From Candidatus Altimarinota bacterium (GTDB lineage: Bacteria; Patescibacteriota; Gracilibacteria; Absconditabacterales; Absconditicoccaceae), in the NCBI GenBank assembly GCA_027046965.1, contig JALTWR010000008.1:62001-126000 (forward strand): DNA of 64,000 nucleotides, given 5' to 3'. Made by a program: the position numbers and the translations under genes. Positions 16,606 to 53,848 of the stretch are shown piece after piece (the first letter of the stretch is position 1; each line of letters opens with the position of its first letter). The notes beneath the pieces are model-generated. The model did not search any database, was not told the origin of the DNA, and saw only the letters and a program-made list of their open reading frames with translations.

Positions 16606-17946
16606 ATGAGAGTTGTTATAGACTATCTTAAAGGGATTTGGGAAACGCCATCTTTAAAGAGAAAGATTCTTTTTACTTTTGCTATATTAATTGCCTACAG
16701 ATTTTTGGTTTTTTTACCAGTTCCGTTTGTAAATATTAAAGAGTTGTTCACTTTGATCTCTCAGAACAACTTATTACAAGCGGGAGCAGGAGGAGGATTA
16801 GAATATTTAGCGGTTTTGCTGGGTGGTACCTTGGATAAGTTTTCTATTATAACTGTGGGGTTAATTCCCTTTATTAATGCTTCAATCGTGATTCAGCTTC
16901 TAACAGCAGTTTTGCCACATTTAGAGGAGCTGCAAGAACAGGGAGAAGTAGGGCAGATGAAAATCCAGCAATATACTAGATGGTTGACAGTCCCATTTGC
17001 TTTTTTGCAGGCTATAGGGACAGTATATTTCATACATTCATTGGCTCCTAGCGTGATAAATACTACTATGGGGATAGTGCTTTTGTCCGCATTTAGTATG
17101 ATGGTATGAAGCATTTTGTTGATGCGGCTTGGTGAGACTATTACTGAAAAGTGAATATCAAATGGTATTTCGCTTATAATATTTTCTTCTATTGTTGCTG
17201 GAATAATGTCAAAACTTTTTGGGTACTTGGTGGGAGCAGGTTCTACAGAATTGCAAAAAGTTATTGTATTTGTTTTGTTGGTGGTAATAGTGCTTGTGAT
17301 ACTTTCTATATTGCTTATTAGAACTGTCAAAGAGATCCCAATTATATATGCTAGAGCTGGTAGAGTGGAGGAAAGAGCTGTATTGCCTATACCATTGAAC
17401 CCTGTGGGAATGATTCCGATAATTTTTGCTATGTCTTTTATTTCATTCCCTTATTTAGTAGCTACTTTGTTTGTTAAAAAAGGAGTGGAAAGCTCTACAC
17501 TTTACAATGTTGCTAATTGGATTCAACAAAATATGAATATTTATACCAATCAACCAGCTCCCTTAGCAATAGGATTGTTTTTTGTTTTAACAGTTCTTTT
17601 TACTTTCTTTTATACAATTATTGTATTTAATCCCGAAAGAATGGCGGAAAATATCCAGCAAAGGGGAGGTTATATTCCTTGAATTAGGCCTTGAGAGGAG
17701 ACAGCTAAATATCTCAATAAAATCTTGATGCATTTGAGTTTTTGGTGAGGAATTTGATTAGCATTGGTAGGGATCTATTCTTATATTTTGCCATATTTGC
17801 CATTTGTGAAAGATTATGTTGTAATGTCTGGTACTTTGCCAGTAGTGGTAAGTGGTGCAGGTATCATTATTATAGTGGGAGTTGTAAAGGAAATTATTGA
17901 CAAGGTTAATGGTGAGCTTTTGATGGAAAGATATGAAAAATTATAA
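16606..17946 (+). CDS. secY: Protein translocase subunit SecY
   Basis: 446 residues with ten membrane helices, the channel of the Sec translocon in the inner membrane. Conserved points: the N-terminal KRKILFTFAILIAYR, helix 2 region NASIVIQLLTAVLPHLEEL, the LGETITEKGISNGISLII loop, and [29 protein letters not shown], where Gly in both GIRPG positions are TGA. The secretion gene ends the ribosomal operon; adk, map, infA, rpsM and rpoA do not follow. Confidence 0.97.
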
Positions 17947-24477: not shown

Positions 24478-25889
<1,412 letters not shown>

Positions 25890-25893
<4 letters not shown>

Positions 25894-30244: not shown

Positions 30245-31646
30245 AGCTTTTTTGAGAAAGGTACAATCCCCAAATAATTCCTCCTATTGTCATAAAAAAA
30301 TAGGTTACGATTCTTTCGCTGAGAGGGTGTAATACAATGCTTTGTAAAAGTAGGGCTGCCAATCCAAAACTTCGGGCACCTAATAATTTTTGGATATGTG
30401 TCCCTTTTGTTTTTAAATACATAATAGGCTTGAGCAAATTAAGATGTATACCTAGCCATATTAAAAAACCTATTATTCACAGCTCCATTCGTACTTGTAG
30501 GTAATGGTTTTCAGGATTTAGTCATTTTAGAAATTCAGATCCTCATTTGGAGTTTATCTGACTAATTTTGTTGCAAACTTGAAGATGGGGTTTTAATCTA
30601 CAAAGTTGATGTGATGCGGCACCAGAACTTCCGGGCCCTCGCCCAAGTATGGGTTTGTTTTGTACAAGTTTTCGGGTTTCATAAGTAAATATAAAGTGTC
30701 AAGTATTTGATCCACTTCTGGAAGTATATCATTTGTAAATGAAGGGAAACATCAACAATATTAATACACTTCATCAAATCAATAACTTTTTGAAGTATTT
30801 TTTTGATGATAAAAAAAACATTCAAAATAAAACAATACTTTCTAGTAAGAATGTAGCTATAGCTGCTCTAGAAAAAGTCAACATTATTGCCAAAAGCCAT
30901 AAGCTCCAGTTGATTATAGTCTTTTGAAACTTTAACTTTTTAAGAACCATCACAAAATAAATAGGGAAAAATGCGGTTAGAAAAAAGGCTCGTCACAGTG
31001 GTAACTCAAACACAAATTGACTGCGTACAAAGCCATAAAGTATTTCTGTTTTCTGGGCTGCTATTGGTTGAGAAAGATGCATAGCAGAGTTTATTAAGTT
31101 TTTTTGGTATCCTATGTGAGTTAAAAAAGATGGTTTTGTAAATATCATAGCATACCAAAAAAAGGATAGGATAATTAAGTTAGGAAGCCATTTTTTGGTG
31201 AAAATTAATAAAAAGTTATATAAATTTTTAAAAATTTGCTGATTGGTGCTAGCTAGATAATAACTAGCAAAAGATAAACTTAGAAGCACAATCAAATAGA
31301 AGATATCATATTTCACAAAGAGTACATATCCTAATATGCTAGATGGATGTACAAAGGCAAGGACTAAAGCCCAAATTCCTAAAAAAATAGTTCAAATGGT
31401 GACAGTTTTAATTGTAGAGTTTTCAAAAAATTTTTGAGCTAGATAGGGATTTTTAAAAATTAGATAAATATCCCAAATAAACACTAAGATTATCAATATC
31501 TCTTTCCAAAGCCATATGGCATCGGGAACCAGTTTTAATTTGTATTTAAATAATGCAATTAAAGGGACCTGTAAGAGCAGCAATATCAAAAAAAATTTAA
31601 TTGCAAAAATTAAGATACTTTCCTTTTTTAATGTTTTATTCCACAT
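30216..31646 (-). CDS. O-antigen ligase / Wzy-like polymerase, multi-pass membrane protein
   Basis: 476 residues with about 11-12 hydrophobic helices. The large extracytoplasmic loop carries NKPILG-x-GPGSSGAASHQ near residues 330-345 and NHYLQV-x-MELGIIGFL near 385, the G-x-GxG and H-N-x-x-L-x-x-x-E-x-G patterns of the O-antigen ligase/polymerase family. CGA codons at several points (for example 30639-30641, the x of LG-x-GPG) fit the Trp common there. It would ligate or polymerise surface glycans on a lipid carrier. It starts inside the end of the PHP gene (11-base overlap) and ends inside ruvA. Confidence 0.8.
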
Positions 31647-32559
31647 CTAGTTGCTGTTGATATTTGGAATAAAGCTGCTGGATGATTGGGGAGGGCCTGT
31701 AATCTGGGAAAAGAATTTGCCCCATAGGAATATCTATATTTATTTGATTAGCTAATTGCTCAGTGTTGTGGATGAGTTGTTTTACAAAGCTTAAGTCCAA
31801 TTGATTTTTTTTAGCTATATCCAGAATCTCTTTTTGAGTTAGTATATGGAAATCTCAGTGCTTAAATATATGAGGTGTATTGCCTGCTCAATATTTAATT
31901 TCCAATGATGCTAAAAATGCTTCTTTTTGAGAAGCTGTGGCATAATGATAATTTGAGGATATTATTGGCGTTCATAGGTCTTTAAGTTTATATAAACTTT
32001 CTCGCAAAACTTTGAACACAGGCAGTTTTTTGAAGTCTTGGATATTAAATTCTATAAGTAGATTTTGTGGTCCAATTATTTCAGATAGTTGTGAAAGTAA
32101 GTCTTCAGCTTGATTTAGAGATCCTCACGAAAGTATTAAATCTCATAGGACGCTGTTGTGGGAACCTACAATAAGATATACGTTTTTAAGGGAGGATAAT
32201 TGTTTAAAATCTACTCTAGGGATATCATTAAAAAGCCCTTTGGTGTTCGCATATGTTGTAAGCTCAAGTAATTCTAGGTATCATTCATAGTTTTTTGCCA
32301 AAAAAGTAGCAAATTTAGGTTCCCAGTTTTTTGGGGGAGTAGAAGAGATAGTCTGTATTAAAGGCAAATCAACTCCTATAAGCGGATTTATATTGTTTTT
32401 TTTTGCATTGGTATAAAAATCTATAATTCCGTACATTCACCAGTAATCTGTAAGAGCAATTGCTGACAAGCCTAACTTAGAAGCTGTGGAAATTATATCT
32501 TGTATGGAGGCACTCGCATCCAATAATGAATAGCTTGAATGGCCATGCAAAGATATCAT
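31636..32559 (-). CDS. Stand-alone PHP-domain protein resembling the N-terminus of DnaE
   Basis: 307 residues. The N-terminus ISLHGHSSYSLLDASAS...GLSAIALTDYWGMYGIIDFY...NPLIGVDL closely follows the PHP domain of bacterial DNA polymerase III alpha, and the NYHYATASQKEAFLASLEIKYG segment follows its later part, but the polymerase palm, fingers and beta-binding parts are missing. The HxH motif is kept, while the usual TDH is TDY. It could be a phosphoesterase/exonuclease, a polymerase cofactor or a relic. It overlaps the following membrane gene by 11 bases, and upstream 60-230 bases hold no gene on this strand. Confidence 0.75.
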
Positions 32560-32978: not shown

Positions 32979-35516
32979 TTATTGACAAGACTCACACATC
33001 ACTTTTTCAAAGGGATCAGTAGGACAGGCGTTTTCTCAATAAAGCTCCCCAGACCTTAACTTTTCAAAGTACTCGTCACCTTTTGTTAGTCTAATATATT
33101 CTTCAATAATTTTTTCTTCTTCAGCACTAGGATTATTGGGGTCTATGGTTTCTAGCTTTTTCTCTAATTCTTTAATTCTTGCTTGTTTGGGGTCAGATGA
33201 ATCTGTTAATGTTGTGGCGATTTTAACTTTTTGCTTTACTCCAAACCCCTTCCTTGCTCCACGTTTGTTAACCTTTTGGGTATATTTTTCTCCTTGTATT
33301 TTTTTCTCGATAAAACAATAATATGTTGCTTTGAGCCCTTTTTTCCAAGCATAAAGGTATATTTCCTCCATGTTATCTCTTAATTCTTCTTTGAGATACA
33401 TATTTCTACTAATGGATTGATCTACCCATTTTTGCCAAGCAGCAGCTATATCAATTTGTGAAAAAGGTGATATTTCATAAGCGGTCTTAAACAGTTTTTT
33501 ATCTATTATTCAGTCCAATTCAGGTATGTTTTGTATGCTACCTCCAGCATTAATTATTTTGGATTTTATTTCTTCATTCCATAGCCCTTTTTCTTTTAAT
33601 TGATTTATAAGTGCTTTTATAATTATGGTAAATTTTCCTGATAATGTTTCTCTAGAATATACGTTGGCAAAATAAGGATCAATAGTAGAGGAGGTCCCAG
33701 CTATTAATGAAATGGATGAGGTCGGAGCAATAGCCATTAATACTAGATTTTTTCTAGGTTTGTATGGTGGCTTTTCCCATTTAGCATATTCTTTTTGATA
33801 AAATGGAAAAGCTCCTTCCACTTGAGCTAATTCTTCAGAGGTTTGAAGGGCCGTAGTGTATATAAACTCTCCAAGTTTGTCAGAGAGTTTAACTGCTTCA
33901 GGAGATTCATAAGGTATATGCAAGTCTATAAACATTTCTGCCAGTCACATAATTCCAAGTCAGATTGGTCTTAAGTCTTGTGAATTTTTTTTGGATTCTG
34001 GTGAAGGATAAAAGTTTATGTCTATTACGTTATCTAGAGCTTGTATAGCTATTTGTACTGTCTTTTTTAACTCTTCCCAGTTGATTAGCTCTAGCTTTTG
34101 TTCAAATGAAAGCTTTGATATGTCTTGATGATGTGTTTTTTTCACAAATTTGGATAGATTTATAGAGGCAAGGTTACAAACGGCTGTACTTTGTTCAGAA
34201 TTTGGAATTCATATTTCTGTACATAAATTGGATGAGTGGATTATGCTATATTCTTTTGCAGGATTTTTTTCATTAAATCTATCTTTAAATGTGATCCAAT
34301 AGTTACCAGTTTTTGCTAGCCTTATCAAAATTTCCTTGTAAAGATTTGTAGCCTTCATCTTTTTCCATAACTTCAATTCTCCTTTTTCAGCTTTTTGTAT
34401 ACATTTGGAGTAGTATTTACTAAATTCTTTACCCCATTTAGTTACCAGTCCTGGGCATTCTTTAGGGTCAAACATATACCAATCTTGGTCTTTTTGCACT
34501 CTTTCCATAAACTCATCTGGTATCCAGCTGGCTGTGTTTAAGGATCTTGTCCTAAGATAATCATTTCAGTTGGTCTCTTTTAGGTCCAAGAATTCTGTAA
34601 AGTTGTAGTGCCATGGCTCCATGTATATTACTTCAGATGACCTCCTTCTTCCTCCTTGCATTATAGCATTTATGATTGTATCATAGATTTTGATAAAAGG
34701 AATAGGCCCTGATGATTTTGAGTTAAGAGTGTCAATATGAGATCCAGATGCTCTGAGTTTGCCAAAATAAGTTCATACTCATCCAGCATATTTAGCGAAA
34801 AAAGCAGTTTCTTTTGCTTTGTCCATAATACTCTCTAGAGAATCTCCAACTACGTTTACATAGCAGCTGCTCAGTTGAGAGATTTTCATACCTGAATTAA
34901 ATAAGGTGGGAGTAGAGTGGACATATTTTAACTGTGCCAGTTGGTTATAGATTTTTATAGCAAGTTCCTCTTTGTCTTGTTCTGTAAGAGACAGTCCCAT
35001 TGCAATTCTCATCCACATCCATTGAGGCTTTTCCACCAATCTTTTTTGAGAGTCTCTAGTTAAATATCTATCTTTCATTATAGAAAGTCCAAAGTAATTT
35101 AAGTGTTTGTCAAATTCATAATTTATACTTAACTCAATAGCTCCTAGGTTAAAATCTTTCATTTTAGGATTTAAAATTCCGTTTTCAACTCACCAGTTTA
35201 TATAATCAGCAAAAGAAGCAAATTGTTTGTTTACCTCTTTATTGATTATTTTTACTAACTGAGCAGTAGCTACTTCATCATATAGGGGATCATCTGTAAT
35301 TAAAGGTTCAATAGCCTTCAAAAGCAACTGATCTATTTCTTCTGTTTTTACTTGTGGAGGTAGCTTTAATTCAAAATTTTTTAGTATTTTTACCAAGGGT
35401 ATAAATTGATCTTCAAATGGTACATGTTGAGTTACCTCTTCAATAGCTTTTATAATCTTTTCGGTTTTAAAAGGCTCTTGAGTGCCGTCTCTGTGTATTA
35501 CTACTTTTTGGCTCAT
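32979..35516 (-). CDS. nrdA: Ribonucleoside-diphosphate reductase, alpha subunit
   Basis: 845 residues; reduces ribonucleotides to deoxyribonucleotides. An N-terminal ATP-cone (VVIHRDGTQEPFKTEKIIKAI, 5-95) suggests dATP/ATP control of activity. Catalytic residues are present: Cys in LSSCYVN (about 207), the N-x-C-x-E set in SSNLCTEIG, the partner Cys in TAVCNLAS, the radical-relay Tyr pair in ATYYC, and a C-terminal CESCQ redox pair. CGG/CGA is not needed to explain it. Transcribed after nrdB, 21 bases away. Many glycines are TGA. Confidence 0.95.
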
Positions 35517-35537: not shown

Positions 35538-36524
35538 CTAAAAGTTTGTATATTGGTTTGGGGTTGTTTCAAAAAAGTTTTGTAATACCATCAAATCTTG
35601 CTTTTCAAGCCATTTAATAGGATTTTTGTCTACACCAAAATAAGGAGCAAATCCTAGTTCCTCTAGTCTTCTATCTGTAATAAATTTTAGGTATCATTCC
35701 ATCTCTTCATAAGAGACACCAAAAACTATATGATTTTCAAAATGTCTTTTTAAGAACTTTAATTCCAGTTCTACACCATCAGTTAGAGTTTTTCTTACTT
35801 TTTCCACAAATTGCTCATCTTCAGCCAATTCAGGAGTTTCTTCTAGCATAGCTAAAATTAATTCTATTCCTAGTTGTAAGTGAAAGCTTTCATCTATTAA
35901 TACTAAATCTACACCATTGTTAACATTTTTCATTTTCCCTGTTTCTCTCATAGCAAAATACAAGGTGAACGCTGAGTAAAAAAATATTCACTCTTGCAAG
36001 ATATTGTTTACTAAAATTGCATATAAAATTTTCTTTTTTCATTCTAATGTGTCAGGGTCAATAATGTTACCAGCTCCCACGCTAATGGCATCTGCGGCTT
36101 GAGCCACCAGTCCTTGTTTTTCTTTTAATAGAGGGTCTGTAGTGGTTTTTTCATACATCTGCTTACGATCCATACTGAAAGTGTTAAGTATCATTTCAAA
36201 AAAATCTGAGTGAATGTCTTCCATAAACATTTGTACTGTCATAGCCATTTTTGCATGAGGATGAACTATGTAAGGGTAAAATGCTTCTCATAGCACATTT
36301 TGAACTAATAATTCGCTAGTGACAAAATAACCAATTAGATCGTGAAATAAACGCCTTTCATCATCATTCAAAGATTCGTAATCCATAACATCTTGCTGGA
36401 TATTGATTTCTTCCGGAAACCATACTGCCTGCTTTTGCCTCACATATAGCTCGCGAAAAACATCATGAGATCCGTCAAGTTTGATGCCGTCTAATACAGA
36501 CTTTTTCCCTACGATTTTCACCAT
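35538..36524 (-). CDS. nrdB: Ribonucleoside-diphosphate reductase, beta (R2) subunit, class Ic-like
   Basis: 328 residues from the ATG at 36522-36524; a longer frame begins with TTG and is not preferred. The dimetal ligands are all visible: Glu71, Glu102 and His105 (MEDIHSDFF), Glu178 (LQEGIFFY), Glu212 and His215 (DESFH). At the position of the radical tyrosine (E. coli Tyr122, seven residues after the second Glu) there is Phe109, and the first ligand is Glu, not Asp. Both traits are those of the class Ic (Chlamydia type, Mn/Fe) R2 proteins. Precedes nrdA in an operon; a promoter is not obvious. Confidence 0.93.
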
Positions 36525-42715: not shown

Positions 42716-44557
42716 TTATTTTTCTCTTTTCTTTTTGATTTCTAATCCTAACTCTTTTAAAAGCTGTGGTTCGATCTCACTAGGAGCCTTTAACATCAGG
42801 TCTTCTCATTTTTGTGTTTTTGGGAAAGCAATTACTTCTCTGATATTCGGCTCATTTTGGTAAACCATTACAGCCCTATCAAATCCCACTGCAAATCATC
42901 AATGTGGGGGAATGCCATAAGAAAAAGCTTTGAGCATATGACCAAATCTGTTTTGAATTTGCTGAGGAGTTAGGCCCAATATTACAAAAATTGCCTCTTG
43001 TAATTGTGCGTCGTGAATTCTAATACTTCCTCCTCAAATTTCATAACCATTTAGTACCAAGTCATAAGCATCAGCTTTTATTTGAAGTATTTGTTTTCTG
43101 TCTTCTCAAGATAGTTTACCATCTTTTTTTATCTTTTGGGCTAGTTCTAGTACTAATGGAATGTATTCGTCTTTGGGTTTAGTGAATGGATGGTGCATTG
43201 CTGCCATCTCGTCGCTTTCTTCATCATACTCAAACATTGGAAAATCGACTACTCGAGCAAAGGCTAATTCATTTTGTTTTCATTGCAACAAGTTGAGATC
43301 TTTGATGAGTATATTTCTTAGGTATCCTAGAAAATCAGTGGCTTTAAGCCATTCGTCAACTTGCATAAATATTGTAGCATTTGAATCATTGCCTAGTCAT
43401 AAAGCTTGCTTAAATTGTTGTAGCAGCTCAGAGTTAAAATATTTTGTAAGAGGTGATTTTATTTCTGTCCCTTCCACCACAAAGTACGCTAGTCCTTTTG
43501 CTCACTTTTCTTTGAGAAGTTTTTCAAATTTATCTATTTCTCATCTGGTATAAACCTTGGGTACTACAATAGCTTTTGCAACACCTCCCGCCTCGATTAT
43601 TTTTTTGAAAACTTGTAAATCAGTTTGTGATATTATAGTAGTTATATCTTGAAGTTGCAGTTGATCTGTTCTTAGTTCGGGTTTGTCTATACCGTATTGG
43701 TCCATAGCTTCGTCAAACGTCATCCTTTTGAATGGCTTGAAAACCAACGGTCTTGAAGGATAAAGTGATTCGCTAAGGTGAGTAAATAAATCCTCTAGTA
43801 TATTTAACACATCTTCTTGCTCCACAAACGACATTTCCAAATCTATTTGAGTGAACTCTGGTTGTCTGTCTCATCTTAAATCTTCATCGCGAAAACATCT
43901 AGCCAATTGTACATATCTGTCAAATCAGCTTACCATCAAAATCTGTTTAAGTTGTTGGGGGGATTGAGGTAATACATATGCTTTTCCTGGAGAGTGTCTA
44001 GAAGGTACTATATATTCTCTAGCCCCTTCTGGAGTATTTTTGATAAGTGCAGGAGTCTCAATGTATAGGAAATTGTGTTTGTTTATCAGATAGTTTAGTG
44101 CCTCTTGTGTTATTTTGGCTCTTGCTATAATATTTTGCTGCATTCTTTGTCTTCTGAGGTCTAGGTATCTGTATTCCATCCTTGTTTCTTCTTTAAGCTG
44201 GGTTTCAACATCCACAGGGAACGGTAGAGTTTGTGACTCACTTAAGATTTCTATTTTAGAAGGGATCACCTCAATCTCCCCAGTTGGTATGTCGGGGTTT
44301 TCAGTTCATTGGGGTCTTTTTACAACTTCTCCATGGACTTTTATTACATATTCTGGTCCGATTTTTTCTAGAAGCTCCATTATATCGGTGGCAGTAGTTT
44401 TGGGGTCAGCTTTTATTTGAGTTATTCAATATCTATCTCTAAGATCTACAAAAATGATCCCTCAATGATCTCTTATAGAGTTTACTCGTCCTGATAAGAC
44501 AACGTTTTGTCCGATATGAGAGGTATTTAACTCTCCAAGCGTATGCGTCCTATGCAT
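42716..44557 (-). CDS. aspS: Aspartate--tRNA ligase
   Basis: 613 residues, bacterial type with a GAD insertion (about 290-420). Class II motifs: the OB anticodon domain VVLSG-x-VNSIRDHGG, FVDLRDRYG; motif 2 region [24 protein letters not shown]; and motif 3 [11 protein letters not shown]. Two CGA codons (44486-44488, residue 24; 43253-43255, residue 435) fall where the family has Trp (the G-W-V and W-V-x-DFP positions), while CGC encodes the Arg of CFRDED. This is the clearest single-gene evidence for CGA=Trp. It ends convergently with the small charged gene. Confidence 0.96.

Positions 44558-50299: not shown

Positions 50300-53848
<3,549 letters not shown>

Follow-up and report, generated by a model that had tools for sequence, protein, structure and literature searches.

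A tyrosine-free, class Ic-like ribonucleotide reductase R2 subunit outside the Chlamydia-type clade in a recoded Absconditabacterales genome

In class Ic ribonucleotide reductases (RNRs) the oxidant is stored as Mn(IV)/Fe(III), a state reached when its Mn(IV)/Fe(IV) precursor accepts one electron via Tyr222 and Trp51 (PMC4118035). Tyr222, the relay of this activation electron, was described as conserved among class Ic R2 subunits (Griese et al., PMC4118035). The pairing of Phe at the radical position with Glu as first metal ligand marks class Ic-like R2 proteins (Ruskoski and Boal, PMC8463856), and the Glu ligand is not a determinant of metal identity (PMC4118035). In the literature cited here, the Chlamydia trachomatis enzyme is the only Tyr-less Mn/Fe reductase studied in depth. 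Two other groups share the Glu ligand: class Id, which also stores its oxidant on the metals (PMC6754362, PMC8463856) and keeps the tyrosine together with Lys at +4 and Trp at +7 from the Glu (PMC6754362), and the R2-like ligand-binding oxidases (R2lox), which have neither the radical tyrosine (PMC4118035) nor a C-terminal tyrosine (PMC3824934). Class Ic was found to be polyphyletic by neighbour joining (Lundin 2010, as cited in PMC3824934).

This article describes an R2 gene of a Candidatus Altimarinota bacterium (Absconditabacterales), located in a window of 64,000 nucleotides (the whole stretch of DNA analysed; contig JALTWR010000008.1, positions 62,001 to 126,000, assembly GCA_027046965.1). 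Judging from its residues, its modelled fold and its genomic partner, we consider it likely that the protein is the R2 subunit of a working O2-dependent class I RNR in which the metal pair, instead of a tyrosine, carries the oxidant, as in class Ic, and that it belongs to a separate lineage. The features of the locus, all on the minus strand and, for the R2 codons, assigned by alignment, are:

35538..36524, minus strand: class I ribonucleotide reductase R2 (NrdB-type beta) subunit of 328 aa, with TGA read as Gly (open reading frame, Pfam, relatives)
36420..36422, minus strand: Trp35 codon; residue of the radical path where electrons enter, equivalent to E. coli Trp48 and C. trachomatis Trp51
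36312..36314, minus strand: Glu71 codon (GAA), first metal ligand; E. coli NrdB has Asp84 and C. trachomatis R2 has Glu89 at this position
36210..36221, minus strand: codons of ligands Glu102 to His105
36198..36200, minus strand: Phe109 codon (TTT), at the site of the radical tyrosine; equivalent to E. coli Tyr122 and C. trachomatis Phe127
35991..35993, minus strand: codon of ligand Glu178
35904..35906, minus strand: Leu207 codon, at the position of the activation-relay Tyr222 of C. trachomatis R2 (PMC4118035)
35895..35897, minus strand: Ile210 codon, replacing the near-universal Arg of the RDE motif
35880..35891, minus strand: codons of ligands Glu212 to His215
35550..35552, minus strand: Tyr325 codon, C-terminal tail, link to R1 (Tyr338 in C. 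trachomatis)
32979..35516, minus strand: R1 (alpha) subunit, 845 aa, with an N-terminal ATP-cone (profile search)

The gene runs from 36524 to 35538 and its product scores 215 bits against Pfam Ribonuc_red_sm. An earlier reading of the DNA made from the sequence only (the sequence-only reading) had given the same coordinates, which hold, and lacked the strand and the recoding: the frame is open only when TGA is read as Gly (table 25), as table 11 breaks it at four in-frame TGA codons (G79, G162, G179 and G277). Gly79 and Gly179 are invariant glycines among the relatives, including genes free of in-frame TGA, which confirms the recoding. Neither R2 nor R1 contains a CGA or CGG codon, and the protein as read is thus unaffected by a reassignment of these codons to Trp.

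Alignment with C. trachomatis R2 pairs the six metal ligands one to one (E71/E89, E102/E120, H105/H123, E178/E193, E212/E227 and H215/H230) and sets Phe109 on F127, so that the three residue claims of the sequence-only reading, namely the six ligands, a first ligand Glu instead of Asp, and Phe where class Ia and Ib carry Tyr, were borne out. Glu71 and Phe109 are kept in 24/24 rows of the clade formed by Absconditabacteria-like and Aquificota genomes and hence reflect neither sequencing error nor chance; a sequencing or translation artefact was rejected on this ground and because reading TGA as Gly recovers conserved glycines. The possibility that a misplaced alignment conceals a tyrosine was rejected as well: the stretch from E102 to F109 is gap-free within the clade and against C. 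trachomatis R2, and no other Tyr falls on the radical position. The first-ligand residue and the radical-position residue change together, and no row combining an Asp first ligand with Phe at the radical position occurs among 121 aligned R2 sequences. Trp35 and Tyr325 are conserved across the clade (the sole apparent Arg at position 35, in L040, is a CGA codon, read as Trp in its group), and F182 aligns with C. trachomatis F197 between the metal sites.

The likeness to the chlamydial protein (1syy, 4d8f, 4m1i) thus extends from the Glu/Phe pair and the six ligands, whose spacing agrees to within a few residues, to the phenylalanine between the metal sites, the radical-path Trp, the C-terminal Tyr and the fold. 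The best PDB sequence matches were 6y2n (E 1.8e-36) and the C. trachomatis chains 1syy/4d8f (about 2e-35), the next reaching 6e-25. An AlphaFold model built from six sequences (mean pLDDT 76, low at residues 16-40 and 308-328) had C. trachomatis R2 as its top match (Z 33.7, rmsd 1.7 A over 271 residues) with 6y2n within the same top rows, while the best non-Ic chain, 2rcc of Bacillus halodurans, reached Z 30.1; such a shared fold, here a predicted one, does not show which metals are bound. The two proteins differ at 26-27% identity in that the window R2 has Leu207 for Tyr222 and Ile210 for Arg225. Leu207 is present in 24/24 clade members, Arg (or Lys) at position 210 is otherwise almost universal, and the combination of Glu/Phe with Leu207 and Ile210 was found in these 24 sequences and nowhere else among the 121. 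E. coli NrdB (class Ia) shares the fold, the ligand scaffold and a Leu at the Tyr222 position, and differs in its Asp first ligand and Tyr122 radical.

The R1 gene starts 21 bases downstream of R2 on the same strand; in the sampled Ic-type loci, in contrast, R1 precedes R2. By comparison with E. coli NrdA, its catalytic residues are presumably the active-site Cys218, Cys432, Glu434 and Cys447, the Tyr732-Tyr733 pair and the C-terminal Cys841/Cys844. At the level of sequence, the electron path that leads from the metal site over Trp35 and Tyr325 to R1, with its Tyr-Tyr pair and active-site cysteine, is unbroken. Searches of the organism's own genome (0.85 Mb assembly, 95% complete) returned one R2, one R1 and one anaerobic NrdD; NrdI (PF07972) was not found, nor was a Nramp Mn transporter, Nramp being the importer searched for, nor a separate class II enzyme, since the sole match to the NrdJ model was R1 itself, below the cut-off. 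A search with PF02867 turned up no further large subunit in five genomes of the same family or in several Aquificota genomes, and the R2/R1 enzyme is therefore very probably active there. Just downstream of R1, a 307-aa ORF (31636-32559, minus strand) opens with a stretch resembling the PHP domain of DNA polymerase III alpha and lacks the remainder of the polymerase.

Descent was examined with maximum-likelihood R2 trees of 94 and 65 rows, from which the four trait columns were left out. The clade of the window R2 forms one group (support 100/100), whose sister is another Tyr-less Patescibacteria group (L021-L028, L030; 99/96 in the 94-row tree, 97/97 in the 65-row tree), a relation recovered in the R1 tree at 100/100. 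This sister group has the Glu/Phe pair as well, and differs in three respects: its residue at the Tyr222 position is Trp, position 210 keeps Arg or Lys, and R1 is followed by R2. The class Ic R2 proteins of Chlamydia, haloarchaea and other Patescibacteria fall in a different clade, close to Tyr-bearing proteins, and class Id lies far away. AU tests, with p-values that are not fully a priori as the groups were defined after the tree had been seen, rejected holding together all Tyr-less R2 rows (p 4e-5), the clade, its sister and the Ic clade (p 9e-6; p 9e-4 without 6y2n) and the three Tyr-less groups in the R1 tree (p 0.004). Placement with the Chlamydia/haloarchaea clade, the phylogenetic check that had been proposed for a class Ic assignment, was thus contradicted by both trees. 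From these trees the tyrosine would have been either lost more than once or regained by some relatives. Two side observations concern the radical site: the Asp/Tyr R2 of a Pseudomonas plasmid (L052) is sister to the Phe/Glu protein 6y2n, a close pair in which the radical site has switched, and two further divergent R2 proteins of Aquificota (L111, L112), which have a Glu first ligand, Phe at the radical site, Trp in place of Tyr222 and Lys in place of the Arg, may represent another separate Tyr-less lineage, going by their residues.

The name class Ic-like given by the sequence-only reading therefore stands in one sense and not in another. By the Phe/Glu residue rule (PMC8463856) the protein as translated is class Ic-like, and Trp35, Tyr325 and the nearest structures by sequence and fold agree with this; by its residue at the Tyr222 position (Leu207) and by its descent in the R2 and R1 trees it is placed outside the R2c clade of PMC4118035 and PMC3824934. 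Class Ia and Ib have an Asp first ligand and a Tyr radical where this protein has E71 and F109, and the NrdI flavodoxin that goes with class Ib is missing from the 95% complete assembly. Class Id and R2lox identities were rejected on their defining residues: Gln75 (+4), Leu78 (+7) and Phe109 stand where class Id has Lys, Trp and its tyrosine, and R2lox has no C-terminal tyrosine and no R1 partner, whereas here Tyr325 is invariant and R1 adjacent.

A metal-centred oxidant is the best reading because Phe109 cannot hold an oxidant at the radical site, and by analogy with class Ic this oxidant is probably Mn(IV)/Fe(III). In the proposed sequence of events, Mn(II)/Fe(II) would bind R2 and be oxidised by O2 to Mn(IV)/Fe(IV); one electron, arriving mainly via Trp35, would then yield Mn(IV)/Fe(III), which would start each turnover by taking an electron from the R1 cysteine over Tyr325. 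With the Tyr222 equivalent absent, the activating electron would have to use the Trp35 route alone, dispensing with the Tyr222 branch of C. trachomatis, much as in E. coli R2, in which the activation electron passes through Trp48 and a Leu occupies the Tyr222 position. The identity of the cofactor is not transferable by descent, as the lineage lies outside the Chlamydia-type clade in both trees. A more specific and tentative proposal, which we hold with reserve, is that the recoded Absconditabacteria and the Aquificota (Hydrogenothermaceae) share an independent tyrosine-free subclass of class I RNR with Tyr222-free activation and perhaps a metal preference of its own.

Other explanations differ in where the oxidant would sit and in how the tyrosine was lost. 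The clade may be true class Ic by descent, with a single loss of Tyr in an ancestor shared with the Chlamydia clade and Tyr and Asp regained in nested relatives, which would be compatible with the Mn/Fe mechanism; in the R1 tree two losses and a loss followed by a regain cost about the same by parsimony, and switches do occur, as the Tyr-bearing plasmid protein beside 6y2n illustrates, but reversal of two coupled substitutions would be required and the window clade would also have had to lose the Tyr222 relay and the Arg, so that we regard this history as possible, if somewhat doubtful. A di-manganese Mn(IV)/Mn(III) oxidant assembled with superoxide as in class Id, Mn/Fe not being the native form, is unlikely. 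Class Id likewise combines a Glu first ligand with an oxidant on the metals (5olk/6sf4 of L. blandensis NrdBi, 6cwo of F. johnsoniae), a feature that the window R2 would share, the GTDB class of the window includes genomes with genuine class Id proteins (L041, L042), and the absent Tyr222 relay would matter less; against it stand the Tyr, Lys and Trp that class Id retains (PMC6754362) and its distance from the clade in the R2 tree.

A di-iron enzyme with another nearby tyrosine as radical holder appears more improbable still. Tyr183, which aligns with E. coli Tyr209, and Tyr66 are both invariant across the clade, but the former is found also in the Mn/Fe-using C. trachomatis R2 (Tyr198) and in Tyr-bearing R2 proteins, the latter falls on E. 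coli Tyr79, not known as a radical site, and the Asp-to-Glu change that accompanies the loss of the tyrosine would go unexplained. That the gene is decayed or encodes an R2lox instead of a reductase subunit can practically be dismissed: the Glu ligand and missing radical tyrosine do recall R2lox, but NCBIfam models of R2lox reach 23 to 48 bits where the best reductase model has 201, the tail tyrosine and the R1 neighbour speak for a reductase, and the gene is intact in complete clade members.

The close relatives of the window R2 (59-69% identity) come from four other recoded or Patescibacteria-type MAGs and from Hydrogenothermaceae. Clade members were found in 6 of 288 sampled genomes of the window's GTDB class (E < 1e-150), all of its own family, other genomes of which in this sample have a much more distant R2 or none; the distant ones that were read are of the Tyr/Asp type (e.g., L087, L088). 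In Aquificota the gene is present in 35/136 genomes at E < 1e-100, plus three fragments. In one Hydrogenothermaceae contig (L036) the neighbours, read from sequence, include cytochrome c peroxidase-like and molybdopterin-oxidoreductase-like genes; because these are the neighbours expected of free-living Aquificota, the gene has probably moved between the two groups. Contamination of the Hydrogenothermaceae MAGs by Absconditabacteria was rejected given these neighbours, ORFs that are open with TGA as stop, and the 35/136 genomes. No relatives occur among the viral contigs searched (viral_contigs), the best phage and plasmid matches listed are below 34% identity, and a literature search by title and abstract combining RNR with Persephonella, Gracilibacteria or Patescibacteria returned nothing on the clade. 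In Hydrogenothermaceae, R2 and R1 are separated by a 569-aa ORF similar to homing endonucleases (L036, 6001-7710), which is absent from the window, and three R1 frames (L132, L138, L140) measure about 1150 to 1230 aa, about 400 aa above the others, which suggests an intein or other insert in these predicted proteins.

The idea that class Ic is polyphyletic is not new; what is added here are maximum-likelihood trees of R2 and R1, AU tests and a difference at the residue level. A second Tyr-less lineage outside the C. trachomatis clade would make it possible to ask if the coupled exchange of Asp for Glu and of Tyr for Phe suffices for a metal-centred oxidant, and if the Tyr222 relay is really needed. 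Expression should be straightforward with Aquificota orthologs that have no in-frame TGA.

Class Id-type R2 proteins (L041-L044, L128-L130) were encountered in Patescibacteria, some of them in the window's class and family; they have Glu first, the Tyr kept and the Lys/Trp signature, several carry an N-terminal ATP-cone, and L041 scores 635 bits against L. blandensis NrdB (5olk).

A further observation concerns the genetic code. Where PDB homologs have a conserved Trp, the window has CGA or CGG in 5/5 positions checked, in RpoB, AspRS (two), PepA and SecY:

50300-53848: rpoB, codon 739
42716-44557: aspS, codons 24 and 435
24478-25893: pepA, codon 433
16606-17946: secY, codon 174

The reading of CGA/CGG as Trp, in addition to TGA as Gly, is the published Absconditabacteria code (PMC8629427), on the strength of which the organism is described here as Absconditabacteria-like, and table 25 therefore still mistranslates these codons of the window as Arg. 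In the window's GTDB family, five R2 genes (L040, L087, L088, L124, L128) have CGA at the otherwise invariant radical-path Trp, which may be taken as an independent sign of the same reassignment.
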